Of a stretch of 64,000 nucleotides of DNA, positions 49,530 to 64,000 are shown in pieces (the stretch's first letter is position 1; each line of letters opens with the position of its first letter). Location: NCBI RefSeq assembly GCF_021129235.1, contig NZ_JAJOMA010000001.1, forward strand, positions 186,001 through 250,000, in the 5' to 3' direction. The stretch comes from Kineosporia mesophila (lineage in GTDB: Bacteria > Actinomycetota > Actinomycetes > Actinomycetales > Kineosporiaceae). The notes beneath the pieces were generated by a model. The model saw only the letters and a list, made by a program, of their open reading frames with translations. It had not been told where the DNA came from and did no database searches. The translations under genes were made by a program, and so were the position numbers.

Positions 49530-49541
49530 GGGGTTGTTCCT

Positions 49542-49577
49542 GGAGCGGGCCGGGTCCTTCGGGGCCCGGCCCGCTCC
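49542..49577 (+). terminator. Terminator separating the phosphotransferase gene from the MoxR locus
   Basis: Perfect 13-base arms (49542-49554 and 49565-49577) with a 10-base loop. The next locus therefore starts its own transcript. Confidence 0.8.
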
Positions 49578-49629
49578 GCTTCGTCCGGGCTTCACCGGTC
49601 CGGCTCATCAAATTGTCGGTGGGCGTTGG

Positions 49630-49635
49630 TAGCGT
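49630..49635 (+). promoter_or_regulatory. Possible -10 (TAGCGT) of leaderless MoxR-locus transcript
   Basis: TAnnnT hexamer ending 7 bases before GTG 49643, with no ribosome site. Confidence 0.4.
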
Positions 49636-49642
49636 CCGTGAC

Positions 49643-50515
49643 GTGAGTTGGACGAAGACCGCGAGCGGGCACGAAGTGGCTCTTGTCGAGGGCCGGGTCA
49701 GGTGCCGTAACCAGGCCGGGCGCCTGCTGAAGGGTGTCCCGGCCTCTCTGAAAGACGATCCGGTCGTGGTGCAGCTGCGCCAGACTGTCGAGTGGCTCGC
49801 CCGGCACGAGGCGAGCTGCCTCGTCCAGGTCGAGACCTGGATGGTCCGATCGCTGCCGGTGCCGCTGGGGGTGCTGGCCGAGGTCTGGCCGGACGAGTCC
49901 TGGCAGCGGGCCCTGCGCGACCTGGTCGTGCGTCCTCTGGCCTCGGCGGCCGACCCGTCCTCCACCGGTGAGGTCGGCCTGCTGCGGGCGGTCGACCGGG
50001 AGAAGGGCATCGGGCTGGTCACGCTCGACGGTGACACGGTGTTCGTGCCCGCCCGGGCCGTCGTGGTGCCGCATCCGGTGCTGCTGGCCGATCTTGACGA
50101 GCTGCGCGAGTTCGTCGCCGATCTCCAGGTGGAACAGGCTGTCTCGCAGCTTTTCCGGGAGATCGCGCCACGCCCGGCCGGGCTCCGGGCCCGTGACACC
50201 TCGGTCAGTGACTGGGCCAACGGCGAGTTCGCCCAGTTGCGGCACCTCACCGGCCGGGCCACCTCCCAGGGTTACGCCGTGCGCGGTGGCTACGCCTGTC
50301 TGCGCATCTGGGAAGACGGGCACGCGCTGGACGCCCGCTACTGGCTCGGCTCCGACGACCCCGAGTCCCCCGCCTGGACGGGCGAACTCGGCTGGGTGGA
50401 CGAGCAGTCCCGGCCGGTGCCCCTGACCGGGATCGGCCCGGTGGCCTGGTCCGAGGGAGCCCGCATGGCCGCGCGCATCCACGCGGGCCGCAAGACCGAC
50501 GACGAAGATGCGTGA
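49643..50515 (+). CDS. DUF4132-domain-like protein, first gene of MoxR/VWA locus
   Basis: 290 residues, soluble. VSWTKTASGHEVALVEGRVRCRNQAGRLLKGVPASL leads into a domain with FVPARAVVVPHPVLLADLDELREFVADLQVEQAVSQLFRE. The E/D-x-x-L-R-E-F...D-x-x-V-x-Q-x-x-x-Q-L-x-R pattern recalls the C-terminal DUF4132 domain of E. coli YehI. The remainder (GYAVRGGYACLRIWEDGHALDARYWLG) is beta-rich. The assignment is from memory and moderate. Start GTG 49643 appears leaderless; the frame's upstream part covers the terminator and is not coding. Confidence 0.7.
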   Translation: MSWTKTASGHEVALVEGRVRCRNQAGRLLKGVPASLKDDPVVVQLRQTVEWLARHEASCLVQVETWMVRSLPVPLGVLAEVWPDESWQRALRDLVVRPLASAADPSSTGEVGLLRAVDREKGIGLVTLDGDTVFVPARAVVVPHPVLLADLDELREFVADLQVEQAVSQLFREIAPRPAGLRARDTSVSDWANGEFAQLRHLTGRATSQGYAVRGGYACLRIWEDGHALDARYWLGSDDPESPAWTGELGWVDEQSRPVPLTGIGPVAWSEGARMAARIHAGRKTDDEDA

Positions 50516-50528
50516 AGGGCGTTCAGGC

Positions 50529-53500
50529 ATGAGCAGAGCACTGCGCGACCGGCTGGTCGAGGCCGGGGCGATCGTGTCCCCGGAGCCCTCGGGCTCCCCG
50601 GTGGCCGGGGAGCCCGGGGCCACCGACACGGTGACGGCCCGGGCCTATCGCCATCCGGCGCTGGACGACCGCGTCGTGGTGCGGCTGGTGCCCGAAACCC
50701 TGGGCCAGGCCGAAGACCTGGCGCTGGAGTTCCTCGGGTTCGAGGTCGCCCGGCCGCCGGTTCCCGTCGGTACCGGCCGGCGTCAGGCCCTCGGGTTCCC
50801 GGCCTGGGCGCTGATCAACGACCCGGCCAACGGGCACCACGCCCTGGCCCTGGTGAAAGACATCGAGCGGCTCGCCCGGCAGGCCAAGAGCCGCCCCGGG
50901 GCCGCGAAAGACGGTTTCGTCGAACTCGCCGCCCGGCTCGGGGCCTCGGTGCCGCACTTCCTGCCCACCTTCTACGAGCAGGCCGGGCGGTCGTTCATCG
51001 CGGTCGACAACAAGCAGGGTGCCGCCACCATGTTCGGCAAGGCGCGCGAGGCCGAGCGGGTCTACGCCCTGCCGATCGACGAGAACCGTCAGCGAGATGT
51101 TTTCCTGGAGTTCGCGTTCAACGGCGCGCTGAACGCCAAATCCCTCACCCAGTACGCCAAGGACCTCGCCGGTCGCACCGATCCGGTGGCCGCGTACGAG
51201 CTGTTCCGCCAGGTCTGCGCCGAGCGGGTCGCGGGTGGCCTGCCGCCCTACGCCGGGATGGCCGACGACCTGCGCCGCCTGGTCAAGGCCGCGAAACTCG
51301 ACCAGGAGCAGCAGGAAGAGCGCGTCATCGCCGACCTGCTCGAGTCGCCGGCCCTGCCGCACGCTCCGTTGCCGTTCTGGAAGTCCTACGCACCCGCCCT
51401 CCGACGGCTCGCCGGGCACGACCCCGCGATCCGCGGCCGGCTGCTCGCCCTCTTCCCTCGCGCCGAGCAGGGCGGCACCGAGGAGTTCTGGTTCGGCCTG
51501 CTGCACGAGACCGGCGCGCTCGCCGGGCTGATCGAGACCGACGGCGTCGACCCGAAGGCCCGTCCCGACGACGGTTCGTCCGGCTGGCTGGGCCGGGCCG
51601 CGGCCTGGCGGGCCCGGGGCTGGCGCAACGCCCGGCGGTCGGCCCGTCTGCTCGACCTGGTGCAGCACATGGAGGCCCGGCTGAAGACCGAGAACCAGCC
51701 GCTGCGGTTGCTCGGGGCCGGGATCGACCTCGACCTGCTCGACCTGGTGCTTCATCTCGGCCTGAGCGTCGAGCTGCCCGAAGGCCAGGCGGTGCCGATG
51801 TTCCCGTTGCAGCGCTGGCGCCGCGACGACTCACCCGGTCGGCGTGACCTGGCCGCCCTGGCCGATGTCGACTGGGCCCGGCAGCCGATGCGGCTGGGCC
51901 TGAACGACGCCCTGCGTGGTGGTTACGGCGTGGGCCGCGACGGTGCCGGGCGTCTGCCCCTCGACCACGTGCGGGTGTTCTACGAGACCCGGGGCACCCG
52001 CGGTGCGCTCGCCACCTGGCTGGAAGAGGCGGCCGACGAGGTCGACGAGGGTGGGCTGCCCGCGCTGAGCGACGCTCTCGACCGGTTGCGGCCCGCGGCG
52101 CACGGCGAGGTGTTCGGGGTGCGCCCGCAGACCCATGCCCGGGTCACCGGGGTCGACGTCGCCGAGGTCCTGGCCCGTACCCTGCGCATCGGGCTGCTCG
52201 ACGAGTTCGGCTGGCCGGCCCTCGAGCAGGCCGTCACCGAGTTCCCCGAGCCGAAGCAGCACCCGAACGGCTGGACCGAGGAGGCGTTCTCGGTCACCGA
52301 CTCGTGGCCCGAGCTGATCCTGCACAACAAGGTGATGGCGGTCGTGGTGGGCCCGCACGAGGTGTTGCTGCGGCACACCTTCCGCATCCCGGCCGACGTA
52401 CCGGGCTACTACTCGCGGTCCGTCGTCCACGTCGACGGGCAGCTGCTGGTGACCTGGCAGAGCAGTGACGGGGTGCACGGGTACTGGAGCGACCGGCCCG
52501 ATGAGGTCTTCCGGGCCGGTAACGACCAGCCCCACCACTACTTCAGCCGGTTCGGCACGTCGTTGCCGCTGCCCGGCGGCGGGCGCACCTTCGGCGGCCG
52601 TCCGCTGCTGCCCGGTGACCGGGTCGTGGGCAAGGTCCGCGACGTGGCCACCGACGGCTCCGGCTGGTGGCGGCTGGAGGGGGAGGGATACTCCGGGCGG
52701 TCGTGGCGTGAGTACGACCCGGCGACGGGGGATGCGGGGCGCCGATCGCGTCCGGCCTTCTTCGAGGCCGGGCTGGAGGCCGAGGGGGCCGAACTCGCCG
52801 ATGACTGGTGTGCGCTGGCCCCGCTGCGGCCCGGCCTGGCGAGCACGCCGTTCGGCGCGGCCGGCGGTCTGCTCGGCTGGCGTTCGGTACGACGGGAAGA
52901 CGGCTCGCTGGAGGCTGTCTCGGTGACCGGCGAGGTGGCCCGGCTGAGCGTGCGGCTGACGGGCTCGGCCTGGATGAGTCATCAGACCGCGGCGATCGGC
53001 CCGATCCGGATGCCCGGCGGCGGTGAGCCCGCGGCCCTGCTGGCCAGTGGGCGGGCCGGCGGTATCACCTTCACCGACGGTGAGGCCCGGGGCGCGGAGC
53101 TGGTCACGGGCCGGCGCGGGGCCGAGGCGGTCTACGCCCGGGGCACGGCGTACATCCCGCCGGTGGCGTTCTGGCACGCGTTGCGCGCCCGTGACGAGAA
53201 CGGTTCCGCGGCACTGCGGGTCATCACCCGGGAGCAGGGCCGGGCTCTGCTCGACGGCGCCCGGAAGGGAAAAGCGGTCAAGGCCGTTCGTGCGGTTCTG
53301 CCCGGGATCAGTGACGAGCGACTGGTTCTGGGCGTGGCCGGCGTGGCCGAGGCGGCGGCCGAGCAGGTGCAGCGCATCACCGCTCTGCCCCGGCCCGTCA
53401 CCACGGGCGTCGTGGAGATCAAGCCGCGTCCCGTCACCGGGGAGGTCATCCTTCCCGAGGTGGCCACGGCTGTCGATCCGGTTCCGGGGCAGGGCATTCC

Positions 53501-55583
53501 GGTGCCAACCAAGACGACCGACACGGATCTGCAACGGTCGCTCGGCGGGCTCACCGACGTCCGTAGTTATTACTGGAGCCGCTCCCACGAGGCCCCCGAC
53601 ACGATCGTGAACCTGAAAGGCGTGGTCGCCGCGGTCACCGGCGGGCCGCCGAAGAAGGGCCTGCTGGCGAAGGTCGGCCTGGGCCGCAAGCAGGCCGCGG
53701 TGGTCGAGGTGCCGTCGACGTCGGTCGACTGGAGCCCCGTGATCGGTGGTCTGGGGGCCCTGGCCCTGAGGGTGGGGCTGGCCACCACCCCGGCGGAAGA
53801 CCGGGCGGCGCTGCTGGTGCTGCTTGCCGCCGTGGCGCAGACGCCGCTCGCCGAGCAGGACGGGCACTGGCGCCGGCTGAGACTCACCTCCTCGCAGTCG
53901 TCCTCGGCCAATGACGTCGAGATCGGCACATTGCTGCCGACCCGGGGTGGCCAGGCGTTCGCCCAGAGCTGGGGCAACGAGTACCTCGACGGGGCCTACC
54001 GGGGGGTGCTCACCGCGATCGAGTACGTGCCCGAGAGGGGAGATTTCGGCCCGGTCGCGGGCTTCGCGATCGCCGGGTCGCGCGAGGGGTGGGGCTGGGG
54101 CGGCCAGGCCCGCCTGCGGCAGATGCTCGAGCTGGTCGCGACCCGCGGGCCGGCCCCCTGGAGGCCGGAGGCGGTCGACGAGCTGGTGCGCGAGACCGGG
54201 CTCACCCGGGTCGAGGCGTCGTTGCTGCTGACCGGGTTGCTGCGGATCGACGCGTACGAGAACAACTTCCTGCCCAAGCCGGTGCGTGAGCAGCTGGGCC
54301 TGAAGGTGGCCGAGGCGAAGGCGGCCCGCGATTCGCTGCACCGGATGCTCACGACCGCCGACCGGCTGCGCCTGCTCGGGGCGGCGATGCCCGAGGAGCC
54401 GGCCGATCTCTGGGAGCAGGGGCCCGACGTCGGGCGGCTGGCCCGGGAATGGAACGCCCGGTTCGGCCGCCGGGTGCCGGTGCCCGACGTCCTGGTCGCC
54501 GATCTGGCCGCGTCCCGGAAGAACACCTACAGCGGTGCGGGTGACGCGTCCGCGGTGCTGCAGGGAATGGTGGCCCCGGAGTCCACGCCCTGGCTCACCA
54601 CCGACGTGCGGTGCCGGATGGAAGAGCACCGGGTGATGCACGGTGGCGAGGGAGAGAATCACGGTTTCCGGGATTCGCACCTGGCCGACACCGTCATCGG
54701 GCTGCTCTGGCTGGCCTACCGGTTGCCGCTGGGTGCCCCGATCCGCGCGGTCCTGCCCCGGGTGTACGAGGCCCTGCGGCAACGGCTCGAGAACCCTGAC
54801 CTGCTGCTGTCGTTCGCCTCCGGGCAGCCGGAGGCCGGGCTGGACGGGTTGCGTCAGGTCTACGGGCTGCCGCCGGCACCGACCGGCCAGCCGCGTCCGA
54901 CGGAGACCCTGGCGCTGGGTGACGCCGGCTATCTGGTCAGCCGGCCGTGGGCGACGGAGGTGTACGTCCGGCCGACCGCGCTGGACTCCGGCGGTGCGCC
55001 TCTGCTGGAACTGGCGGGCACACCGGCCGGGCGGCCGGGGGCCGCCCTGCTGATCGCTCGCGGGGCCGGACTGGCCCGGCTGGTGGACGAGCTCCGGCAG
55101 GAGTCCCCGGAAGGTTCGGGGTGGTTGCCGGATCCGCTGGTCAGCGTGCCCGAGCTGGTGGAGCGGGTGAGCAACCGACTGGGGCTGGACGAGAACGCGG
55201 CCCGGCTGTACCTGCAGCTGCTGGCGCTGCCCGATCCGACGGACAAGAACGTGAGGCTCTGGAACGGCTGGACACCGCGCGTGCTGAAGGCAGCCACGAC
55301 GGCGCTGCTCGGGGCCGGGCTGGTGGTCGAGGGGCAGCGGGCCCGGGCCGGTCGCGGAGTGTTCCTGCCCTCGGCCTGGCTTCCGGTGAAGGCGCCGGGC
55401 CTGCCGGTGGAGGCATGGAAGGTGCCCCTGCTCGGGCTGCTGGCCGACGGGACTTCACCGCTGGACCTGGGGGTTCCGGTCACCTCGGTGCGGGAGCTCT
55501 ACGGCACGGCGTGGGAACGGGTGGTCACTGAGGACGGGCCGAGGATGGATGCGCTCCGCACCGGACGGGACGCGCGACGATGA
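50529..55583 (+). CDS. Very large unknown protein of MoxR/VWA locus
   Basis: 1684 residues, no TM or signal, predicted mixed helix and strand. No ATPase, nuclease or other catalytic motif was recognised. Notable segments: an N-terminal Ala/Leu-rich helical part with repeat character (about 1-450); a beta-rich middle (TFRIPADVPGYYSRSVVHVDGQLLVTWQSSDGVHGYWSD, about 620-660) suggestive of a propeller-like or carbohydrate-type fold; and a C-terminal helical part with winged-helix-like stretches (LVRETGLTRVEASLLLTGLLRI; VSNRLGLDENAARLYLQLLALP). Thirteen bases after the DUF4132-like gene and followed by the MoxR gene. ATG 50529 is preferred to 50508, which overlaps the previous stop. Perhaps a scaffold or target-recognition subunit. 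Confidence 0.85.
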   Translation: MSRALRDRLVEAGAIVSPEPSGSPVAGEPGATDTVTARAYRHPALDDRVVVRLVPETLGQAEDLALEFLGFEVARPPVPVGTGRRQALGFPAWALINDPANGHHALALVKDIERLARQAKSRPGAAKDGFVELAARLGASVPHFLPTFYEQAGRSFIAVDNKQGAATMFGKAREAERVYALPIDENRQRDVFLEFAFNGALNAKSLTQYAKDLAGRTDPVAAYELFRQVCAERVAGGLPPYAGMADDLRRLVKAAKLDQEQQEERVIADLLESPALPHAPLPFWKSYAPALRRLAGHDPAIRGRLLALFPRAEQGGTEEFWFGLLHETGALAGLIETDGVDPKARPDDGSSGWLGRAAAWRARGWRNARRSARLLDLVQHMEARLKTENQPLRLLGAGIDLDLLDLVLHLGLSVELPEGQAVPMFPLQRWRRDDSPGRRDLAALADVDWARQPMRLGLNDALRGGYGVGRDGAGRLPLDHVRVFYETRGTRGALATWLEEAADEVDEGGLPALSDALDRLRPAAHGEVFGVRPQTHARVTGVDVAEVLARTLRIGLLDEFGWPALEQAVTEFPEPKQHPNGWTEEAFSVTDSWPELILHNKVMAVVVGPHEVLLRHTFRIPADVPGYYSRSVVHVDGQLLVTWQSSDGVHGYWSDRPDEVFRAGNDQPHHYFSRFGTSLPLPGGGRTFGGRPLLPGDRVVGKVRDVATDGSGWWRLEGEGYSGRSWREYDPATGDAGRRSRPAFFEAGLEAEGAELADDWCALAPLRPGLASTPFGAAGGLLGWRSVRREDGSLEAVSVTGEVARLSVRLTGSAWMSHQTAAIGPIRMPGGGEPAALLASGRAGGITFTDGEARGAELVTGRRGAEAVYARGTAYIPPVAFWHALRARDENGSAALRVITREQGRALLDGARKGKAVKAVRAVLPGISDERLVLGVAGVAEAAAEQVQRITALPRPVTTGVVEIKPRPVTGEVILPEVATAVDPVPGQGIPVPTKTTDTDLQRSLGGLTDVRSYYWSRSHEAPDTIVNLKGVVAAVTGGPPKKGLLAKVGLGRKQAAVVEVPSTSVDWSPVIGGLGALALRVGLATTPAEDRAALLVLLAAVAQTPLAEQDGHWRRLRLTSSQSSSANDVEIGTLLPTRGGQAFAQSWGNEYLDGAYRGVLTAIEYVPERGDFGPVAGFAIAGSREGWGWGGQARLRQMLELVATRGPAPWRPEAVDELVRETGLTRVEASLLLTGLLRIDAYENNFLPKPVREQLGLKVAEAKAARDSLHRMLTTADRLRLLGAAMPEEPADLWEQGPDVGRLAREWNARFGRRVPVPDVLVADLAASRKNTYSGAGDASAVLQGMVAPESTPWLTTDVRCRMEEHRVMHGGEGENHGFRDSHLADTVIGLLWLAYRLPLGAPIRAVLPRVYEALRQRLENPDLLLSFASGQPEAGLDGLRQVYGLPPAPTGQPRPTETLALGDAGYLVSRPWATEVYVRPTALDSGGAPLLELAGTPAGRPGAALLIARGAGLARLVDELRQESPEGSGWLPDPLVSVPELVERVSNRLGLDENAARLYLQLLALPDPTDKNVRLWNGWTPRVLKAATTALLGAGLVVEGQRARAGRGVFLPSAWLPVKAPGLPVEAWKVPLLGLLADGTSPLDLGVPVTSVRELYGTAWERVVTEDGPRMDALRTGRDARR

Positions 55584-55746
55584 GATTCGGAAGGGGCGCC
55601 GGTGTGTCTGACGGTGTGCCGAGGCCGGCGGGCCGGTCGGCGACGCATGTCGGGTGCGGCGTGGTGAGCGGGGCCCGGGAGACTGGCCGGGTGTCTGCCG
55701 GGCGTGGGCAGCGGCGAACGATGACGAGCAGGGCAGGAGCAGGGCG

Positions 55747-56931
55747 ATGACCGAGACGACGGGAACGGCCGCGACCGGGAGGACGGTGGCCACCGCTCCC
55801 CGGCAGGTGGATCCGCCGGAAGACCGGTATGCCGCCGAGCTGGAGTTCCTGGCCGCGTTCGACGACGGTGCACGGCCACCGGGCTGGAAGCTGACGCCCC
55901 GGGCGGTGGTCACGTTCGTGGTCGGAAGTGAGCGTCCGCTGTCGCTCCCGCAGGGCCGTGAGCGCGAGGGGGTGCCGCAGCGTCGGACGATCTCGGAGAA
56001 GTTCGTCGGGGAACGGGCCCTGGTCGAGCGCTGCGTGGTCACACTCGCGGGAGAACGCGGCCTGCTGCTGGTCGGTGAGCCCGGCACCGCGAAATCCATG
56101 CTTTCCGAGTTACTCTCGGCGGCAGTTTGCGGCACCAGCGGACTGGTCGTGCAGGGCACGGCGGGCACCACGGAAGACCAGCTGCGGTACGGCTGGAACT
56201 ATGCGGCGCTGCTGGCACAGGGGCCCAGCCGGTCGGCGCTGGTGCCGTCCCCGGTGATGAGTGCGATGTCGGCGGGTGCCGTGGCCCGGGTCGAAGAGGT
56301 CACGCGCTGCCTGCCGGAGGTGCAGGACTCGCTGGTCAGCATCCTGTCCGACCGGCGGATCGCGGTGCCGGAGCTGTCCGGCGCGGATTCGGCGGTGCAC
56401 GCCGCACCGGGGTTCTGCCTGATCGCCACGGCCAACCTGCGCGACCGGGGAGTGTCGGAGATGTCGGCCGCCCTGAAGCGGCGTTTCAACTTCGAGCAGG
56501 TGCATCCGATCGCCGACATCGCGATGGAGACCGCTCTGGTGCGCCGTCAGGCCGCGGCGGTGCTGGACCGGGTGCAGGCGCCGTTCACGGTCGACGACTC
56601 GGTCCTCGAGGTACTGGTCACCGCCTTCCGCGATCTGCGTAACGGCAGCACCGTCGAGGGCTGGGAGGTGGAGCGCCCGTCCACGGTGATGAGTACGGCC
56701 GAGGCGGTGTCGGTCGCGGCCGCGCTGGGGCTGGCCGCGGCGTACTTCCCCTCCGGGCGCGACGTGCTCTCCCTGCTGCCGGGCCACCTGCTCGGGGTGG
56801 TGCGTAAAGACGACCCGGCCGACGCGGCCCGGCTCCTGGGATATTGGGACGGCGCGGTGCGGCGGCGGGCCGAGCGCGGCGGACGGCTCTGGCGTCAGGT
56901 CTGGGAACTGCGCGACCGGCTCGAAGGGTGA
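55747..56931 (+). CDS. MoxR-type AAA+ ATPase (YehL-like)
   Basis: 394 residues. Walker A GEPGTAKS at about 113-120, the MoxR-type GNYAALL/QGTAGTTEDQLRYGWNY region, Walker B-equivalent GAVARVEEVTRCLPEVQDSLVSILSDR (Glu-Glu in place of Asp-Glu), sensor 1 LIATANLRDRGVSEMSAALKRRFNFEQVHPI with Arg fingers, and a lid domain. MoxR ATPases act as chaperones with VWA partners. ATG 55747 has GGAG upstream; the frame extends back to 55654 without domain content. Four bases before the VWA gene. Confidence 0.92.
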   Translation: MTETTGTAATGRTVATAPRQVDPPEDRYAAELEFLAAFDDGARPPGWKLTPRAVVTFVVGSERPLSLPQGREREGVPQRRTISEKFVGERALVERCVVTLAGERGLLLVGEPGTAKSMLSELLSAAVCGTSGLVVQGTAGTTEDQLRYGWNYAALLAQGPSRSALVPSPVMSAMSAGAVARVEEVTRCLPEVQDSLVSILSDRRIAVPELSGADSAVHAAPGFCLIATANLRDRGVSEMSAALKRRFNFEQVHPIADIAMETALVRRQAAAVLDRVQAPFTVDDSVLEVLVTAFRDLRNGSTVEGWEVERPSTVMSTAEAVSVAAALGLAAAYFPSGRDVLSLLPGHLLGVVRKDDPADAARLLGYWDGAVRRRAERGGRLWRQVWELRDRLEG

Positions 56932-56935
56932 GCTG

Positions 56936-59900
56936 ATGGCTCGCCAGAAGCAGACACCGGTGGAGCCGGGATCGTCCTCATCGGTTTCGGCCCGGCCTGG
57001 TTCGGAGCTGCCTAGCTCGGAGCTGCCTGGTTCGCGTCTGCCCGGCTCTGCCCCGCCTGGTTCGGATCTGCCGGAACCACAGGCTGCGGTGGCCGGAATG
57101 GTTGCTGCGCGGCCCTATCTGATCGGGGTGCGGCACCACTCGCCGGCTCTGTCCGCGGTGATCCCGGCGCTGCTCGACGAGTTCCGGCCGCAGGCCCTGC
57201 TGATCGAGATGCCACCGCAGTTCGCCCGGTGGATGCCGTGGCTGGGGCACCCTCGCACGGTGGCACCGGTCGCGCTGGCGGGGTCGGGGGAACCATTGCC
57301 GTTCTACCCGTTCGCCGACTTCTCCCCGGAACTGGTGGCCGTGCGGTGGGCGGTGGCGCACGGCGTGGAGATCGTGCCCTGCGACTTGCCCCTGGCCGAC
57401 GCCGGGTGGGGAGAACGGGGCAGCCGGGGGCCCCGGAAGAACGCGATGGCCGACGGTGGTCCACCGGTCCCGGAACCTGCTCGTGAGGATCTCTTCTCCC
57501 GGGCATTGCGCCGGTCCCAGACGGGCCGTGACGGTGACGACCTGTGGGACCGCGTCGTCGAGGCACCGGCTCCGGGGGCGACGCCGGAACAGGTGCGGCG
57601 GGCGGCGCTCGCCGTGGGCTGGGCGATGCGGGCCGACGAAGCCAGGAACGGCCGGGTCGCCGGGGTCGACCTGCGGCGTGAGGCCCAGATGCGGGCTGTC
57701 GTCGCCGATCAGCTGAGCCGTACGCCGGATGCGCGGATCGCTCTGCTGGTCGGGGCTTTTCACGCCCCGGCCCTGGTGGACGGGGACGGGGTCGACCCGG
57801 CGGGGCGGAAGCGGGCGGCTCCGCTCGATGCGCCGCGTCCGGTGCCCGACGTGACCACGAGCCTGATTCCGTACGCGGATCCGTTGCTGGACAGTCGTTC
57901 CGGTTATCCGGCGGGTATCCGCGACCCGCGGTGGCAGGCCGAGACGGTGAGGGCCGGGGGCGATCCCGCGCGGGTCTCGTCGGCGGCGGTGCGGATCGCG
58001 GTGGAGGTCTGCGCCGGTGTCCGCGAGGGAGGGCACCCGGCCGGCCCGGGTGAGGCGCGCGAGGTCGTGCGCCTGACCGAAGATCTCGCGCGGCTGAGGG
58101 GGCTGCCCGCCCCGGGCCGCAGCGAGATCGTGGAGGCACTGACCTCGGTCCTGGCCCAGGGCGAGATGCTGGGCCGGGGGCGGGTGGTGGCCCAGGCGAT
58201 GGAGAAAGTACTCGTCGGGGAACGCCGCGGTCGCCTGGCCCCGGGCACCCCCAGGTCGGGTCTCGGGCCGTCGCTGGAAGCCTTGCTGAAAGAGCTGAAG
58301 CTGCCGAATCCCGATCAGCCGCAACGTAAGGAGCTGCGCCTCGACCCGCTGCGCAGCCCGCTGGACCGGCGTCGCGAGGTCGCCCTCCAGCGCACCCAGG
58401 CCTGCGGCATCTACTACGCCCTCCCGGCCGACGTGCAGGGCGTCGGGGCAGCGGCCGCGCTGACCACCCTGTGGCTGGCCGAGTGGACCCCGTCGTCTGC
58501 TGCTCTGACGGAGATCGCCGGTCTGCTGGGGGTGACGCTGGAACAGGCGTCCGAGGGAACACTGCGCCGGCAGCGCGAACGGGAACGGGCCGACGGTGGC
58601 AGTACGGCCCAGCAGGTGCTCGACGGACTCCTGGCCGCGGCCGGGTGCGGGCTGCCGGGCCTGGCGGCCGACCGGCTGGACGACACCGCCCGGGTGCTGC
58701 CCGCGACGGCCACCCTGCCCGAACTGCTCGCCGGGCTCGACCTGCTGAGCCGGCTGGAACAGAACACCGTGCCGGGGGTGGCCGGCCACGCCCTGCCCGA
58801 TCTCGCCGTGGTCATGGAGGAGGTGCACACGGCGGCGATCCGGCAGGTCGACGGCCTGGCCGGTTCCAGCGACCGGGCCGACGCCCGCGCGCTCCTGGCC
58901 CTGGTGGTGCGCCACGACCGGCTGGGCACCGGCATGCGTCTGGATGCGGCGCTGAAACGCCTTGCGACCGAGGGCAGTCCGCTCATGCGCGGCGCCGGGT
59001 CGGCGGTGCGGGTGCTGCTCGGGCTGGACGACGCCGCCGGACTCGGCGACCGGGCCGCCGCCTGGCTCGACCTGGACACCCCGCTGGAGCTGGCCGCCCG
59101 GCTGTCCGGGCTGCTCATCGTCGCCGGGCCGTTGCTGGAGGCCGGGGGTGACGTGATCGACCCGCTGCTGGCCCGGCTCGAGCTGATGCCGGACGACCTG
59201 TTCCTGCGCCGTCTCCCGGCGGTGCGAGGCGGTTTCGACGTGCTCACCCCGGCCGCGCGGGCCCGTCTGCTGGCTGCGGTCGAGGCCCGGCTGGACGACC
59301 GGCTCGACCTGGTCATGACCACCGATCCGGTGTTGCTCGGACGCTGGGCGCAGGCCGACGCCCACGCCCTGGAAGCATTGCGTGAGCGCGGGCTGGCCTC
59401 GGCCGTCGCACTGGCCCCGGCCGACCGGTGGCGGCTGGTGCTCGGCCAGAAGCAGGACCAGTTGCAGGGACAGGCCAAGCGGTACGGCCAGGCCCTGGAC
59501 GAGCTCTACGGGCAGGGACGGGGCGAGGGATCCGGCGGTGACCTGGGCGGACCGGGCGCCGGTGACGGTCCGTCCTACCCCGGCGTGCGGGAGTGGTCGG
59601 AAGACCTGACCCAGCTGTTCGGCGCCACGGTGCGCGAGGAGGTGCTCGCGGCCGCGGCCGCCGGTGGTCGGGTCGACGCCGCACTCGCCATCGACCCGGC
59701 TTCGGCGCGGCCCTCGGTCGAACTGCTGACCAGTGTGCTCTCGCTGGCCGGCGCGCTGCCCGAGCGCACCGTGGCCCGGCTGCGTCCGCTGGTGGCGAAG
59801 GTGGTCTCCGATCTCACGCAGGAGCTGTCGCGCACGCTCACCCCCGCGCTCACCGGACTCACCTCGTCCCGGCCGACCCGTCGTCCCGGGGGCCCGATCG

Positions 59901-60508
59901 ACCTGCACCGCACGATCCGGGCGAATCTGAAGACGGCCCGTTACCTTCCGGACGGCACGCCCACCGTCATCCCCGAGCACCCGGTGTTCCGTACCCGCAG
60001 CAAACGCACCACCGACTGGCGCATCATCCTGCTCGTCGACGTCTCCGGGTCGATGGAGGCGTCCACCGTCTGGTCGGCCATCACGGCCGCCGTGCTCTCC
60101 GGCGTGCCCTCTCTGACCACGCACCTGCTCGCCTTCTCCACCGACGTCATCGATTTCACCGGTGTGGTCAGCGACCCGCTGTCGCTGCTGCTGGAGGTCT
60201 CGGTCGGGGGTGGCACGTCGATCGCGACCGGCCTGGCCGCCGCCCGTGAGCTCGTCACCGTGCCCAGTCGCACGATGGTCGTGGTGGTGAGCGATTTCGA
60301 GGAGGGCGGATCGATCGGCCCGCTCCTGGCTCAGGTGCGGTTACTGGTGGACGCGGGTGTGCACGTTCTCGGGTGTGCCGGTCTGGACGAGACCGGAGCA
60401 GCGCGGTACAGCGTCTCGGTGGCGAGTCAGCTGGTCGGCGCCGGTATGCCGGTCGCCGCCCTCAGTCCGCTCGAACTGGCCCGCTGGGTGGGGGAGCAGG
60501 TGCGATGA
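56936..60508 (+). CDS. DUF5682-VWA fusion protein (YehM/YehP-like)
   Basis: 1190 residues. After a Pro/Ser-rich leader, the N-terminal DUF5682-type domain shows YLIGVRHHSPALSAVIPALLDEFRPQALLIEMPP, PFYPFADFSPELVAVRWAVAHGVEIVPCDLP and HAPALV. A long helical region follows. The C-terminal VWA domain (about 1025-1190) has the full MIDAS: DVSGSM (Asp about 1034), GGGTSI and VVSDFEEGG. Metal-bound VWA domains are the typical partner of MoxR ATPases. In E. coli these domains are separate proteins. ATG overlaps tightly with the locus: 4 bases after moxR; stop overlaps the SWIM gene. Confidence 0.93.
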   Translation: MARQKQTPVEPGSSSSVSARPGSELPSSELPGSRLPGSAPPGSDLPEPQAAVAGMVAARPYLIGVRHHSPALSAVIPALLDEFRPQALLIEMPPQFARWMPWLGHPRTVAPVALAGSGEPLPFYPFADFSPELVAVRWAVAHGVEIVPCDLPLADAGWGERGSRGPRKNAMADGGPPVPEPAREDLFSRALRRSQTGRDGDDLWDRVVEAPAPGATPEQVRRAALAVGWAMRADEARNGRVAGVDLRREAQMRAVVADQLSRTPDARIALLVGAFHAPALVDGDGVDPAGRKRAAPLDAPRPVPDVTTSLIPYADPLLDSRSGYPAGIRDPRWQAETVRAGGDPARVSSAAVRIAVEVCAGVREGGHPAGPGEAREVVRLTEDLARLRGLPAPGRSEIVEALTSVLAQGEMLGRGRVVAQAMEKVLVGERRGRLAPGTPRSGLGPSLEALLKELKLPNPDQPQRKELRLDPLRSPLDRRREVALQRTQACGIYYALPADVQGVGAAAALTTLWLAEWTPSSAALTEIAGLLGVTLEQASEGTLRRQRERERADGGSTAQQVLDGLLAAAGCGLPGLAADRLDDTARVLPATATLPELLAGLDLLSRLEQNTVPGVAGHALPDLAVVMEEVHTAAIRQVDGLAGSSDRADARALLALVVRHDRLGTGMRLDAALKRLATEGSPLMRGAGSAVRVLLGLDDAAGLGDRAAAWLDLDTPLELAARLSGLLIVAGPLLEAGGDVIDPLLARLELMPDDLFLRRLPAVRGGFDVLTPAARARLLAAVEARLDDRLDLVMTTDPVLLGRWAQADAHALEALRERGLASAVALAPADRWRLVLGQKQDQLQGQAKRYGQALDELYGQGRGEGSGGDLGGPGAGDGPSYPGVREWSEDLTQLFGATVREEVLAAAAAGGRVDAALAIDPASARPSVELLTSVLSLAGALPERTVARLRPLVAKVVSDLTQELSRTLTPALTGLTSSRPTRRPGGPIDLHRTIRANLKTARYLPDGTPTVIPEHPVFRTRSKRTTDWRIILLVDVSGSMEASTVWSAITAAVLSGVPSLTTHLLAFSTDVIDFTGVVSDPLSLLLEVSVGGGTSIATGLAAARELVTVPSRTMVVVVSDFEEGGSIGPLLAQVRLLVDAGVHVLGCAGLDETGAARYSVSVASQLVGAGMPVAALSPLELARWVGEQVR

Positions 60509-62625
60509 ACCTCCCCCCGGCCGATCCGGAACTGGTGGCGTCAACTGTCGCGGGCCTGCCCGACCGGTTGCAGAAACGTCTCGACACCACGGTTTCGGGA
60601 TCTCCAGGATGGAACTACGCGGACGGTGTCGTCGACCTCGGCGGCGCCAAGGTCACGCTGGCGCCCGAGGACGGGTCTCTCCGCAGGCCCGAGAACGTCA
60701 TCTGTGATTGCCTTCTCGCCCCGGTCTGTCTGCATCGGGCCGCGGTTGTGAGCGTTGCCCCGGTGGCCGATCCGGCGCAGGAGGGGCGGGTCAGGGAAGG
60801 GTCTCGGGCGGAAGGGGGATGGTCGGCGGCGTCCGGCGATCCGGAGGTCTCCGGGGCCAGCGCGGCACCGGATCCGGAAACCTCCTGGCCGGCGACGAGT
60901 GAGACCGCGGTGCAGGGTCCTGCGGCTACCGTGCCGGGGGCGCCGGCTGCGGCGACAGGAGGGCATGGTCCCGCGGCGCCGGTGCCCGCGAATCCCTCGA
61001 AAGTAGCGGAACCGGGTTCGGTGGTGGCTGGATTCGTTGCGCCGGAGTCGGTCACGGCCGGGACCGGAGCTACTGCTGCCGCGCAGCCCACACCCGGGGC
61101 GTCCGCTCCGACCGTGCCCGACCCGACGGCGGCTACCCCCGCCGCGTCCACTCCCCACTCGAATCCCGCTGCTTCGAAACCCATTTTCTCTACTCCCACC
61201 AGGTCCGCGGCCGAGACTTCGGTGACCACGGCGTCCGTTGCTTGGAAACCACCAGAACGTGCTGCTGCCCAGATGATCTGGGACGCGGCTGGTCGCCTTC
61301 TCGAAGCCGGGACCGCCGGTGCCGGGGCGGCTCTGCAGGGGCAGTTGCTGGCCGGGGTGCATCAGGCGCGGCTCCGGGCGCTGAATCGCCTGGCCGCGGC
61401 GACCACCCGGGTGGTGAGTGCGGTGCGGGCGGCCCGGGCGGATGACGCCTCGTTCTCCCTGCCGGGACTGACGGCCGATCTACTCGAAGTTCTGTCGGTG
61501 GCGCACGCGGTGTCGACCGGTACGGGTGATCCTTCTGTCTGGCGGGGGACGGCCCGCACGGTCTACTCCGGGGTGGGTGGGCTGAGACTGGCCGGGCTGT
61601 GCCTGGAACCGGTGATCAGCTCCGCCGGGTACGCCGGGGTGGTGGTCTGGCTGACCGACGCCGAGGGCCGGATGTGGTCGGTCTCCGACGTCAAACCCGG
61701 TGACGCGGAGCGGGTCATGTCGTCGGCCGCGGGGCCGGTGGCGGTGGGGGAGACCGGGCTGTCGCACCGGGACCTGTCACGGGCGGGAATGATCATGTCG
61801 TCCGCCACCGCGAATCCGGACGGACGGCTGGGCAGCGGTAGCGGGGTGCGGGCCGTGCGGGCGGCCGGGGTGGGATGGACCGAACCGCAGCTCCTGGACC
61901 GGTTCGGTACTCTGAACGCGGATACCGGTGCGGCGAACGCGGGTGATCACAGGCCGCGGCTGCTCGCGCTCACGGTGTGCGGCGACGACCGGAACGCCCT
62001 GCTGGCCGTGGACGACCAGGGTCAGGGGGTGCGGCTCGTCGGGCCGGTGGGTGACCAGCACCGTATCCACCGCGACAACCTCCGGCTGCTCGCCGCGAAG
62101 CCGGGCCTGCGGATGCTGGCGATCGCGCGGCCCCCGACCGGAGACGTCAACGGTTTCGCCGCTCCGGCGCGCTTTCTCGGGCTCCCGGGCACCCTGGAAC
62201 TGATCGCGGTCGGAGGTGGCGACCTGCGGCTGCCGGCCGGCCTGGGAGGACGCGCCGATCTCGGGTTCGACCGCCTGTCGTCACGTTTCCTGCGTCCGTC
62301 GGGGCCACCGCCACCGTTCCCGGCGACCGGCGAGGTGACCGATCCGCTCCTGGCCTACCGGCGGCGACTGGAACGGGTGGTGTCCGGAGGGAGACGCACG
62401 CTGTCCGTGCCCGGTGTTCCCCGGGAGGTGCGCTCGGAGGCCGCGATGCTCCGCCGTGACCAGCTGGCCACGGCGTCCGTCCTGCTGGAGCGACTGCTCG
62501 ATGCCGCCCAGCCCGCGGAGCGTGACGTGTTCGGCCGGCTCGCCACCGAGACCGGGGGCGACCTGGCCCGGGCCTGGCTGGCCGCGGGTACGTACCAGCG
62601 TGAGCTCCTGGCGGCGCCGTTCTGA
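60505..62625 (+). CDS. SWIM zinc-finger protein (YehQ-like)
   Basis: 706 residues. SWIM motif CDCLLAPVCLH (Cys67, Cys69, Cys75, His77), a C-x-C-x5-C-x-H zinc site that may bind DNA or protein. A disordered Ala/Pro/Thr-rich linker of about 165 residues (95-255) follows, then a helical domain and a beta-rich domain. ATG overlaps the VWA-gene stop (ATGA). Last gene of the locus. Confidence 0.9.
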   Translation: MNLPPADPELVASTVAGLPDRLQKRLDTTVSGSPGWNYADGVVDLGGAKVTLAPEDGSLRRPENVICDCLLAPVCLHRAAVVSVAPVADPAQEGRVREGSRAEGGWSAASGDPEVSGASAAPDPETSWPATSETAVQGPAATVPGAPAAATGGHGPAAPVPANPSKVAEPGSVVAGFVAPESVTAGTGATAAAQPTPGASAPTVPDPTAATPAASTPHSNPAASKPIFSTPTRSAAETSVTTASVAWKPPERAAAQMIWDAAGRLLEAGTAGAGAALQGQLLAGVHQARLRALNRLAAATTRVVSAVRAARADDASFSLPGLTADLLEVLSVAHAVSTGTGDPSVWRGTARTVYSGVGGLRLAGLCLEPVISSAGYAGVVVWLTDAEGRMWSVSDVKPGDAERVMSSAAGPVAVGETGLSHRDLSRAGMIMSSATANPDGRLGSGSGVRAVRAAGVGWTEPQLLDRFGTLNADTGAANAGDHRPRLLALTVCGDDRNALLAVDDQGQGVRLVGPVGDQHRIHRDNLRLLAAKPGLRMLAIARPPTGDVNGFAAPARFLGLPGTLELIAVGGGDLRLPAGLGGRADLGFDRLSSRFLRPSGPPPPFPATGEVTDPLLAYRRRLERVVSGGRRTLSVPGVPREVRSEAAMLRRDQLATASVLLERLLDAAQPAERDVFGRLATETGGDLARAWLAAGTYQRELLAAPF

Positions 62626-62862: not shown

Positions 62863-63447
62863 GTGACGGAGTTGAGCAGCAGCCCTCAGGTGAGGGCAGA
62901 CCGACGGCAGCCCTCTGACGGCACCACCGTCACTCAGGTCACTCCAGTCCCTGAAGTGTCTGCATCGGGCGAGGCTGAAGGCACAGTCGAATCAGGCGGG
63001 ACCGTTACTCGGGAAGCCGGCTTTCTGTCCCGCTGGTCGCTGCAGACACCGGGTATCGACATCTTCTGGCCGATCCTCGCTGTGGTGCTGACCACGTTCG
63101 TGATAGTCGTGTCGACGGTCGCGCACTCGTCGATGGCCGCCGTCGGTGCGGGCAGCCCACGCACCGACTGGGCCTCGTCACCGACACCGAAGGCCGACGC
63201 CCCGTTCGTCGTCGTGCAGATCTCCAGCCGGCCCACCCGGGCCCAGGCCCAGACCGAGGCCCAGGAGCTGCGGCGGGCCGGGCTGGACGCCGGGGTGCTG
63301 CGGTCGGACCTCTACGCCCCGATGAACAAAGGCTGGTACGTGGTCTACGTGGGCCCGTTCCCGGACACGGCCGAGGGCCGGGCCAAGGCCGAGGCGATCA
63401 CCCTCGGCATCAAGGACTCACTCGTCCGCATTCTCCAGCGGCGCTGA
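62863..63447 (+). CDS. SPOR-domain membrane protein
   Basis: 194 residues. A polar N-terminal tail of about 60 residues, one TM (FWPILAVVLTTFVIVVSTVA), a short linker and a C-terminal SPOR domain (FVVVQISSRPTRAQAQTEAQELRRAGLDAGVLRSDLYAPMNKGWYVVYVGPF...). SPOR domains bind peptidoglycan lacking stem peptides, usually at division sites. The last 30 bases overlap the convergent TetR gene. Confidence 0.87.
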   Translation: MTELSSSPQVRADRRQPSDGTTVTQVTPVPEVSASGEAEGTVESGGTVTREAGFLSRWSLQTPGIDIFWPILAVVLTTFVIVVSTVAHSSMAAVGAGSPRTDWASSPTPKADAPFVVVQISSRPTRAQAQTEAQELRRAGLDAGVLRSDLYAPMNKGWYVVYVGPFPDTAEGRAKAEAITLGIKDSLVRILQRR

Positions 63448-64000
63448 CAGCCCCACGGCGGGCAGGATCACCGTGTCGATGAGGTGGATGATCGACTCCC
63501 GCGACGGCGCCTGCTGCTCGTACATCGCCCGGTACATCGCCATCGCCGGGCCGAGCGAGGACAGCAGCTCGACATCGATATCGGGCCGGATCTCGCAGCG
63601 GTCGATCGCCCGCTGCATGACCACGCGGTAGGACTCGACCCGCGGCTTGACCATGATGGCGGTGAGGGCCTCGAACAGCTGCGGTTCCTGCGACATCATC
63701 GACGCCACGCCGATCATGATCTTCAGGTGGCGGTTGCTGTCGGTCACGGCCTTGGGCTTGACCATCGCGACCAGGTCGCCGCGTAGCGTGCCGGTGTCCG
63801 GCGGGACGTACGTGCCGTCCCGCTCCTGGGGCAGCGGCCGTTTCATGCAGGCGATGGCGTCGACCACCAGCTCGGCCTTGGACGACCAGCGGCGGTAGAG
63901 CGTGGCCTTACCGGCCTTGGCGCGCGTGGCCACCATGTCGACGGTCATGGTGTTGTAACCGACCTCGGCGAGCACGTCGAGCGCCGCGTCGAGGATGTCC
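63418..64000 (-). CDS. TetR-family regulator, 5' end cut by window
   Basis: At least 193 codons; the frame stays open to the right edge. The HTH is visible at the truncated N-terminus (DILDAALDVLAEVGYNTMTVDMVATRAKAGKATLYRRWSSKAELV), followed by a helical ligand-binding domain. The GTG at 63975 would remove part of helix 1, so the true start lies beyond the window. Target unknown. Confidence 0.9.
   Translation of the reverse strand, partial: DILDAALDVLAEVGYNTMTVDMVATRAKAGKATLYRRWSSKAELVVDAIACMKRPLPQERDGTYVPPDTGTLRGDLVAMVKPKAVTDSNRHLKIMIGVASMMSQEPQLFEALTAIMVKPRVESYRVVMQRAIDRCEIRPDIDVELLSSLGPAMAMYRAMYEQQAPSRESIIHLIDTVILPAVGLSAPLENADE

Follow-up and report, generated by a model that had tools for sequence, protein, structure and literature searches.

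To what use might a bacterium put a MoxR ATPase, a von Willebrand factor A (VWA) protein, a SWIM zinc-finger protein and a giant partner of no recognised family, all encoded side by side? This question is raised by a five-gene locus of Kineosporia mesophila, lying in a stretch of 64,000 nucleotides (assembly GCF_021129235.1, contig NZ_JAJOMA010000001.1, positions 186,001 to 250,000) that was analysed at its full length and is called the window below. An earlier note, made from the letters alone, had placed here a DUF4132-like protein, an unfamiliar 1684-residue protein, a MoxR ATPase, a DUF5682-VWA fusion and a SWIM zinc finger, and had likened the set to yehI-yehL-yehM-yehP-yehQ of Escherichia coli. 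To our knowledge the yehI-L-M-P-Q set has no assigned job, and no report of this operon or of its promoter was found in those parts of the literature that we searched. By computing gene content and order, the promoter motif and the repair genes in its company, conserved protein motifs, and modular losses and duplications, we arrived at a reading that we consider probable: the locus as a whole encodes a DNA-damage-induced MoxR-VWA machine. That the task of this machine lies at damaged DNA is, taken alone, a tentative proposal that we hold to be somewhat less likely than not. The promoter motif points the machine to DNA damage, and would thus offer a first concrete job for a yeh-type set.

A RecA-NDp-type motif lies in front of the first gene

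The leader of the operon, at 49613-49635, reads TTGTCGGTG-GGCGTTGG-TAGCGT, matches 12 of the 12 positions of the RecA-NDp promoter and ends 7 bp upstream of the DUF4132 gene, the first of the five. The earlier note makes no mention of this motif. The RecA-NDp consensus, tTGTCRgtg-8 nt-TannnT, comes from mycobacteria (PMC5656591) and is acted upon by PafBC (PMC6789036, PMC8223512). Three sites with at most two mismatches lie in the window, against 1.8 expected by chance. Across a set of 80 leaders, drawn from the window, the relative G005 and 78 loci whose upstream sequence was long enough (loci and genomes are numbered with L and G throughout), 37 match at 12/12 and 72 at 10/12 or better, the best matches all having a spacing of 8, compared with 7 of 1600 shuffled leaders that reach 10; these leaders are drawn from related loci, and their counts are hence non-independent. 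Among native controls, a motif of at least 10/12 precedes the DUF4132 gene in 70/78 cases, the giant gene in 0/78, the MoxR gene in 0/73, the DUF5682 gene in 0/72 and flanking genes in 4/407. Within the operon, the motif is found before the first gene only.

The motif accompanies DNA repair genes

Searching the K. mesophila genome (G000) for the 11-position form TGTCRGTG-N8-TANNNT revealed 39 exact sites, and none of the reversed pattern. Thirty of these 39 were fetched, a downstream frame was listed for 29, and ten genes picked by eye encode RecA, UvrA, UvrB, UvrC, RuvA, SbcD, RadA, LigA, a DEDD exonuclease and the thymidylate synthase ThyA; several of the remaining downstream genes do not look repair-like. 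Five of six further genomes hold 10-40 exact 12-position sites and 0-1 reversed ones, and nine of ten genes chosen by eye from 30 sites specify repair proteins or helicases (Ung, RuvC twice, UvrB twice, UvrA, Nth and two helicases).

The Streptomyces-like genomes G035, G140, G183 and G205 (group f6/g13) each contain 10-40 exact motifs (reversed 0-1), which among the sites viewed precede ung, ruvC, uvrA, uvrB and a gene for a YoaA/DinG-like helicase; the five giant loci fetched from this group have their nearest named Streptomyces loci at 84-91% DNA identity. These exact motifs bear on an open question from a LexA study of Streptomyces venezuelae, in which an initial search suggested that the PafBC motif is not conserved and a RecA/LexA-independent response was still to be shown (PMC9380542). 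A hint of an independent pointer to MoxR-VWA proteins in the damage response comes from a Mycobacterium smegmatis pafBC mutant, in which MoxR1, MoxR2 and a von Willebrand factor protein are lowered 1.6-1.7 fold (PMC5656591).

The motif could alternatively serve housekeeping expression or another regulator, leaving the operon with an ordinary, damage-unrelated role, and the -10-like element that it includes would suit such a function. We regard this as improbable, given the repair genes that share the motif in this and other genomes, the 0-1 reversed patterns per genome, and its position ahead of the operon's first gene only.

Sister loci around the same core

At least four arrangements around the same core occur in the phylum: DUF4132-giant; a full YehI-like form (L067, L195, L196); SWIM-DUF5691-MoxR-DUF5682-VWA, referred to below as canonical (e.g. 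L072-L075, L083); and type C, comprising a 460-aa protein, VWA, MoxR and DUF5682, which is also present in the K. mesophila genome (L066, G000:C45). A chance expectation of 0.14 motifs per 20 kb applies to these sister loci. The motif lies ahead of the YehI-like first gene at L067 (a WGR plus DUF4132 protein) and L195 (10/12), ahead of the first gene at type C loci L068, L069 and L071 and at canonical loci L073, L074 and L083 (7 bp before the SWIM gene), and ahead of the solitary fused DUF4132-giant gene of L065 (11/12); L075 has a 10/12 site near its SWIM frame. It also precedes the DUF4132 paralogues L095 (10/12), L096, L097, L100 (10/12) and L101. The motif was not found at L066, L070, L196, L072, L076, L078-L080, L082, L098 and L099, and at L081 the gene upstream of MoxR is cut off by the record end.

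Two of these paralogue settings deserve description. L095 (G000:C40) is a separate 1097-aa DUF4132 protein of K. mesophila itself, its motif lying 45 bp upstream. At L096, L097 and L101, a frame of about 130 aa starts directly after a perfect motif, upstream of a different DUF4132 gene; a Pfam search with the L096 frame gave no match.

Gene content and layout of the locus

The named families of the five same-strand genes were borne out: Pfam supplied four of them (DUF4132, AAA_5, DUF5682 and VWA_CoxE), and the SWIM protein, which like the giant has no Pfam match, is recognised by a CxCx5CxH finger whose four ligands do not vary across 11 aligned loci, the motif occurring somewhere in 73/74 frames. 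None of the five proteins had an NCBIfam or PADLOC match that was above cut-off or convincing; across seven window proteins, PADLOC returned no confident match and weak ones at E 0.004-0.056 only. No toxin domain was recognised in Pfam and NCBIfam scans of these proteins, a WGR domain turned up in none of the five operon proteins, and Rfam and tRNA scans of the window gave no matches.

Table 1 Features of the K. mesophila locus, in window positions
Feature	Positions	Strand	Details
DUF4132 gene	49643-50515	+	290 aa, GTG start; PF13569 E 4e-26
Giant gene	50508-55583	+	1691 aa; alternative ATG at 50529 gives 1684 aa
MoxR AAA+ ATPase gene, YehL-like	55747-56931	+	AAA_5 E 2.1e-36; longer open frame from 55654
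DUF5682::VWA fusion gene	56936-60508	+	PF18934 (DUF5682) 8e-175, PF05762 (VWA_CoxE) 2.6e-59; corresponds to E. coli YehM + YehP in one chain
SWIM zinc-finger gene	60505-62625	+	706 aa; CDCLLAPVCLH (CxCx5CxH) at 60703-60735
DUF5682 N-terminal part, predicted TIKI/TraB/ChaN-like hydrolase domain	57092-58003	+	motif-based, weak profile support
CoxE-type VWA domain	59828-60490	+	MIDAS DVSGS at 60038, SDF at 60290
Terminator-like hairpin, interval between APH gene and operon	49542-49577	+	16-bp stem, UUCG loop
RecA-NDp (PafBC-type) promoter motif, TTGTCGGTG-N8-TAGCGT	49613-49635	+	sole exact match in window

The five genes probably form one transcription unit, as had been supposed, because they overlap or nearly abut (the giant and DUF4132 genes overlap; the exception is 163 bp upstream of moxR) and because an apparent deletion in G005 sets MoxR on the DUF4132 leader and start. 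The terminator that the earlier note had placed before the locus is supported as a terminator-like hairpin: it has a 16-bp stem and parts the operon from the upstream APH and XRE genes, and the fold of 49530-49612 reaches -54.1 kcal/mol (z -5.1, 0/200 shuffles equally stable); no T run follows it. The XRE regulator named as a neighbour does lie upstream, and with the APH gene is present in 6/6 genomes of the genus, versus 1/80 relatives (a Kineosporia) within the sequence compared, making it a genus-only companion. Downstream, the neighbour at 62863-63447 (+) encodes a SPOR domain (E 6.9e-8), and a convergent gene at 63418-63975 (-) has, judged by eye, the look of a TetR-type regulator.

A conserved MoxR-VWA core joined to a putative hydrolase

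The MoxR protein carries Walker A GEPGTAKS (56074), Walker B RVEE (56287), sensor 1 (56422) and the arginine finger ALKRRF (56470). Walker A, RxEE and the arginine finger are present in 103/103 MoxR frames, as is sensor 1 by a loose pattern (57/103 by a strict one). The metal ion-dependent adhesion site (MIDAS) of the VWA domain is equally well kept, with DxSxS in 92/92 frames and the second MIDAS element in 83/92. A ring ATPase acting via a peptide-binding VWA domain is the picture given by the MoxR-VWA literature (Kaur et al. 2020, PMC7159879).

The DUF5682 part begins with a conserved HH[SG]P, followed by a glutamate 23 residues past the second histidine, a later R(E) and then GxxH; the putative active-site residues of the window protein are HH (57134), E in LIEMP (57200), R in RREAQM (57674) and GxxH (57752). 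HH[SGA]P, E, R and GxxH are collinear in 91/102 DUF5682 frames, by a pattern widened after an earlier, narrower R-GxxH form had fitted 40/102; of the 11 frames that deviate, nine are cut or split, and L170 and L174 are of full length yet fall outside the pattern. The TIKI superfamily, in which ChaN is counted, has an active site of two histidines, two glutamates and a conserved basic residue (PMC6254334). The spacing from R to H is 28 in DUF5682 and 29 in RRSP. TraB, too, is TIKI kin. The DUF5682 residue set resembles that of the superfamily, and we suggest that the DUF5682 N-terminal domain is likely a TIKI-like hydrolase. If true, the machine would be a MoxR-driven protease, a combination of which we know no example.

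A fast-evolving giant partner separable from the core

The giant remains the unfamiliar protein that had been described: it has no Pfam or PADLOC family, a single NCBIfam match far below cut-off and no convincing match among PDB sequences, and its reported length of 1684 aa holds from the ATG at 50529, and is otherwise 1691. No catalytic signature was recognised in it. AlphaFold2 models built from 59-sequence alignments reached predicted local distance difference test (pLDDT) values of 87.4 and 88.5 and predicted template modelling (pTM) scores of 0.79 and 0.90. By eye, the modelled N-terminal half appears to contain an alpha-solenoid (about 111-577) and a beta-propeller-like part (about 595-870) of some five four-stranded blades. 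Foldseek searches of the PDB with both halves gave no match at E<=0.001. Candidate folds were rejected: propeller and solenoid proteins are among the 50 matches shown for the N-terminal half, at TM-scores of at most 0.29, and the C-terminal half reached at most 0.41, to short targets such as MarR-type winged helices.

The giant is the fastest-evolving member of the operon. Its identity lies below that of MoxR, VWA, DUF5682 and DUF4132 in 1653/1653 pairs of the 58 complete loci, and below that of SWIM in 1369. Within Kineosporia, the ratio of non-synonymous to synonymous substitution rates (dN/dS) for the giant is 0.39-0.49 in 5/6 pairs and 0.19 in the sixth, against 0.06-0.18 for MoxR and 0.09-0.21 for DUF5682::VWA (15 pairs each); SWIM stands at 0.17-0.26 in 9/10 pairs and at 0.46 in one with over-long frames.

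Partner and core are separable, as seen from losses in two Kineosporia genomes and from second or extra giants in others. The locus of G005 lacks both the DUF4132 and the giant gene, with no giant detected in the rest of the genome; its leader motif is kept (10/12), MoxR begins at the former DUF4132 start, the MoxR and DUF5682::VWA frames are open, and the SWIM frame is shortened, having lost its finger. Relaxed selection on the G005 core was considered; its dN/dS values resemble those of other pairs, which would say little if the partner loss is recent. The locus of G006 has no DUF4132 gene left and retains the giant only in pieces. In Actinokineospora globicatena and A. diospyrosa, the core is accompanied by one giant and by no DUF4132 gene within the 20 kb examined, and DUF4132 with a second giant lies elsewhere; Actinosynnema pretiosum has three tandem giants and a fourth on another contig. 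Extra giants occur in 4/11 genomes, a sample chosen partly for that. Several giants may thus share one core, and the joint loss in one case, G005, suggests that the SWIM finger and the DUF4132-giant pair act together. As a separate observation, L065 (G194:C14, 6933-11183) is a solitary 1416-aa frame that fuses part of DUF4132 with N- and C-terminal parts of the giant, with no MoxR match in 20 kb.

These losses bear on a second alternative, by analogy with NorQD and RavA-ViaA: an assembly chaperone, in which MoxR and the VWA fusion would mature the DUF4132-giant complex or a metal enzyme, DUF5682 being structural. Most MoxR-VWA pairs whose function is known serve in maturation (Kaur et al., PMC7159879; PMC9976466). 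Since G005 keeps its core frames with no giant anywhere in the genome, the giant is no obligatory client; moreover, no gene family is conserved in the flanks, and the putative DUF5682 active-site residues are conserved. We hold the chaperone explanation to be quite unlikely.

Distribution and flanks

Relatives were taken as the best 80 of 351 found in a giant-based search of named genomes, and the titles of all 80 are actinobacterial: mostly Streptomyces, also Pseudonocardiaceae, Micromonosporaceae, Catenulispora and others. The gene neighbourhood, whose conservation had been put forward as a check, held up, with DUF4132-giant-MoxR-DUF5682::VWA-SWIM complete and collinear, fusion included, in 58/80. 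Of the other 22 relatives, 17 run out of sequence (16 where the record stops, and L123 where the fetched stretch does), L137 and L158 each carry one gene broken into two frames, L176 is counted separately, and L164 and L171 have DUF4132-giant without a core in the following 9 kb. Counting K. mesophila itself, the giant is present in 6/13 genomes of the family and in 7/296 across the phylum; DUF5682 and VWA share one frame at those seven giant loci and are separate at the 18 other DUF5682 loci fetched.

Flanking families are poorly shared, the most widespread one occurring at 12/80 loci, and conserved neighbours were accordingly rejected as a functional clue. A phage origin was likewise rejected, the giant having no match in 50,697 phage records. 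A MoxR+VWA tree of 63 rows sorts by bacterial family with the fewest possible changes, and no spread between families is seen in it; it is a quick tree with weak deep branches. The giant matched 11 plasmid records, five of them over at least 80% of its length. One such copy, L209, lies on a 918-kb linear plasmid of Streptomyces atratus (NZ_CP108277.1), where five collinear genes, annotated in order as DUF4132, DNA-binding protein (the giant), AAA ATPase, DUF5682 and hypothetical protein, stand beside an IS110 transposase gene. In a few Streptomyces loci (L116, L153 and others), genes that by eye resemble tube and cap components of contractile injection systems lie about 2-5 kb upstream of the operon, in families of three loci each.

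This distribution is relevant to a third alternative: a damage-induced conflict system, in which the giant would sense an invader, or damage as a sign of one, and the core would release a toxic or growth-arresting activity, as in the MoxR-vWA ternary systems of Kaur et al. Such a system is compatible with the promoter, and would be in keeping with the rapid evolution of the giant, its extra copies in 4/11 genomes, its loss while the core stays, the varied flanks and the plasmid copies. Against it stand the lack of a confident PADLOC match and of a recognised toxin domain among the proteins scanned, the absence of the giant from the phage records, the sorting of the tree by family, and the sharing of the motif with housekeeping repair genes. 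A mobile anti-phage system is not our leading reading, because PADLOC gave no confident match and the MoxR+VWA tree sorts by family, and we judge the conflict explanation unlikely. The earlier note had relayed a proposal of nucleoside triphosphate (NTP)-dependent conflict or stress systems; the stress part stands at the level of the promoter motif, whereas for conflict no Pfam domain of the Kaur third components reached cut-off.

A working model and the evidence that opposes it

The conflict and chaperone explanations differ from a DNA-damage-induced machine mainly in the task assigned. For the machine, we infer induction in vivo, complex formation, hydrolase activity and a substrate as follows. 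Upon DNA damage, PafBC or another reader of RecA-NDp would activate the promoter at 49613, and the five operon proteins would be produced alongside RecA, UvrABC, RuvA and further repair proteins. The MoxR ring, through a VWA domain that would bind a peptide via its MIDAS metal site, might pull on or re-shape a bound protein, and as the VWA domain is fused to DUF5682, a predicted TIKI-like hydrolase, remodelling would probably be coupled to cleavage. Recognition or scaffolding of the substrate could fall to a separable partner, made up of the DUF4132 protein and the giant with its solenoid and propeller, and the SWIM finger would probably recruit the machine to nucleic acid. Its likely job would be the clearing or re-shaping of protein complexes at damaged DNA.

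A number of observations weigh against this model. ClgR has likewise been proposed as a reader of the RecA-NDp promoter (PMC5656591), and the main text of a 2021 mitomycin C study of Mycobacterium tuberculosis names no MoxR, VWA or SWIM protein (PMC8151990). To the non-independence of the leader counts and the by-eye choice of repair genes must be added the weak leaders of L104 (7/12), L113 and L119 (8/12) and L106, L118, L146, L151 and L173 (9/12), and the loci at which the motif was not found, namely L057 (on the same record as L104), L058 (which has lost its DUF4132 gene) and L064; genome G216 has no exact 12-position site. Among sister loci, the motif is clear in 3/10 canonical, 2/4 E. coli-type and 3/5 type C cases, and sites also occur outside the leaders of system genes (L061 at 19448, L065 at 5310, L071 at 8116 and 15934). 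A LexA consensus scan of E. coli yehI-Q gave nothing convincing, and a molybdopterin role has been proposed for a DUF4132 gene of Deinococcus radiodurans (PMC8533742). A fast-evolving, multi-copy partner fits a conflict system too. For the hydrolase, besides the widened pattern, Pfam matched ChaN in 3/20 and TraB in 1/20 DUF5682 members (best E 0.013), and hhalign against pieces of YbaP gave E 0.009 (probability 4%) and 0.83 alone, and 0.076 with a second TraB sequence, a comparison that stayed weak because the actinobacterial TraB profile matched just 1/119 genomes; DUF5682 found no relevant match among PDB sequences.

Comparison with known systems

The closest likeness is to yehI-yehK-yehL-yehM-yehP-yehQ of E. 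coli K-12, where MoxR, DUF5682, CoxE-type VWA and SWIM occur in the same order with DUF4132 upstream. Our own profiles reached YehL at E 2.2e-130 (positions 1-349 of 351; 47% identity), YehM at 4.4e-121 and YehP at 6.6e-87; the SWIM profile did not reach YehQ, though YehQ carries a Pfam SWIM finger. The parallel drawn by the earlier note is therefore sound in content and order and does not extend to YehI as a whole: the DUF4132 gene aligns over most of its length to the YehI C-terminus only (943-1205; hhalign E 3.6e-8), and hmmsearch and hhalign, with a YehI profile of six sequences, detected no resemblance between the giant and YehI. In E. coli, DUF4132 forms the C-terminus of a 1210-aa chain, whereas here it is a separate gene followed by the giant; YehM and YehP are separate proteins, whereas DUF5682 and VWA are fused in K. 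mesophila. Descent of the giant from YehI, DUF5691, the type C 460-aa protein or a 1558-aa protein was considered and rejected (hhalign E >=0.1 each). As for YehL-type membership, the locus has the full-length MoxR match, the DUF5682 and CoxE-type VWA partners and a nearby SWIM gene, and lacks a full-length YehI, which we do not treat as defining because the DUF4132 profile found no gene in ten canonical loci; among the MoxR subfamilies, the comparison covered that of YehL.

The MoxR-vWA ternary systems of Kaur et al. (PMC7159879), with VMAP, iSTAND, FtsH and beta-propeller components, share the MoxR-VWA core, and the GxxxTAKS variant of Walker A, noted there for two subsystems, is present here too. 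A large third protein with solenoid and propeller-like parts would be a further likeness, here seen in a model. The systems differ in that no VMAP, iSTAND, FtsH or effector-associated Pfam domain reaches cut-off in the seven window proteins, the bpMoxR match being partial (23 vs 27 bits at cut-off), and the main text of Kaur et al. does not contain the words SWIM, yeh or DUF4132 (PMC7159879). The canonical actinobacterial SWIM-DUF5691-MoxR-DUF5682-VWA loci share four families and, in three members, the damage motif; they have DUF5691 in place of DUF4132-giant, with no detectable similarity between DUF5691 and the giant, and keep DUF5682 and VWA in separate frames.

The gene molR we take to be the yehF-yehH region adjoining yehI. 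It is listed among the SOS/LexA-controlled genes of E. coli (PMC3978071, PMC11039860). Candidate LexA boxes in the E. coli region were rejected: 12 sites have at most three mismatches versus 6.6 expected (2/100 shuffles have as many), none before an operon gene. As an observation in its own right, a CTG-N10-CAG at L084 8449-8468, directly upstream of E. coli yehF, is compatible with a LexA site for yehF-yehQ. It presumably corresponds to the published molR box.

A DUF4132 gene of D. radiodurans rises upon DdrO depletion (PMC8533742), and the mycobacterial RecA-NDp/PafBC regulon has the same 12-position, spacing-8 motif as our locus, there worked out in mycobacteria (PMC5656591). With the E. 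coli and Deinococcus links taken from papers, the placing of a single family under three different damage regulators (LexA, DdrO and PafBC) would be difficult to attribute to chance. A broader proposal, which we put forward as doubtful and rather unlikely, is that YehL-type MoxR/VWA/DUF5682/SWIM machines form a general bacterial DNA-damage apparatus, placed independently under these three regulators, in which the ring would drive a TIKI-like protease clearing proteins from damaged DNA, with exchangeable large partners (YehI, DUF5691 and DUF4132-giant) of which the giants of filamentous actinobacteria would be diversifying adaptors.

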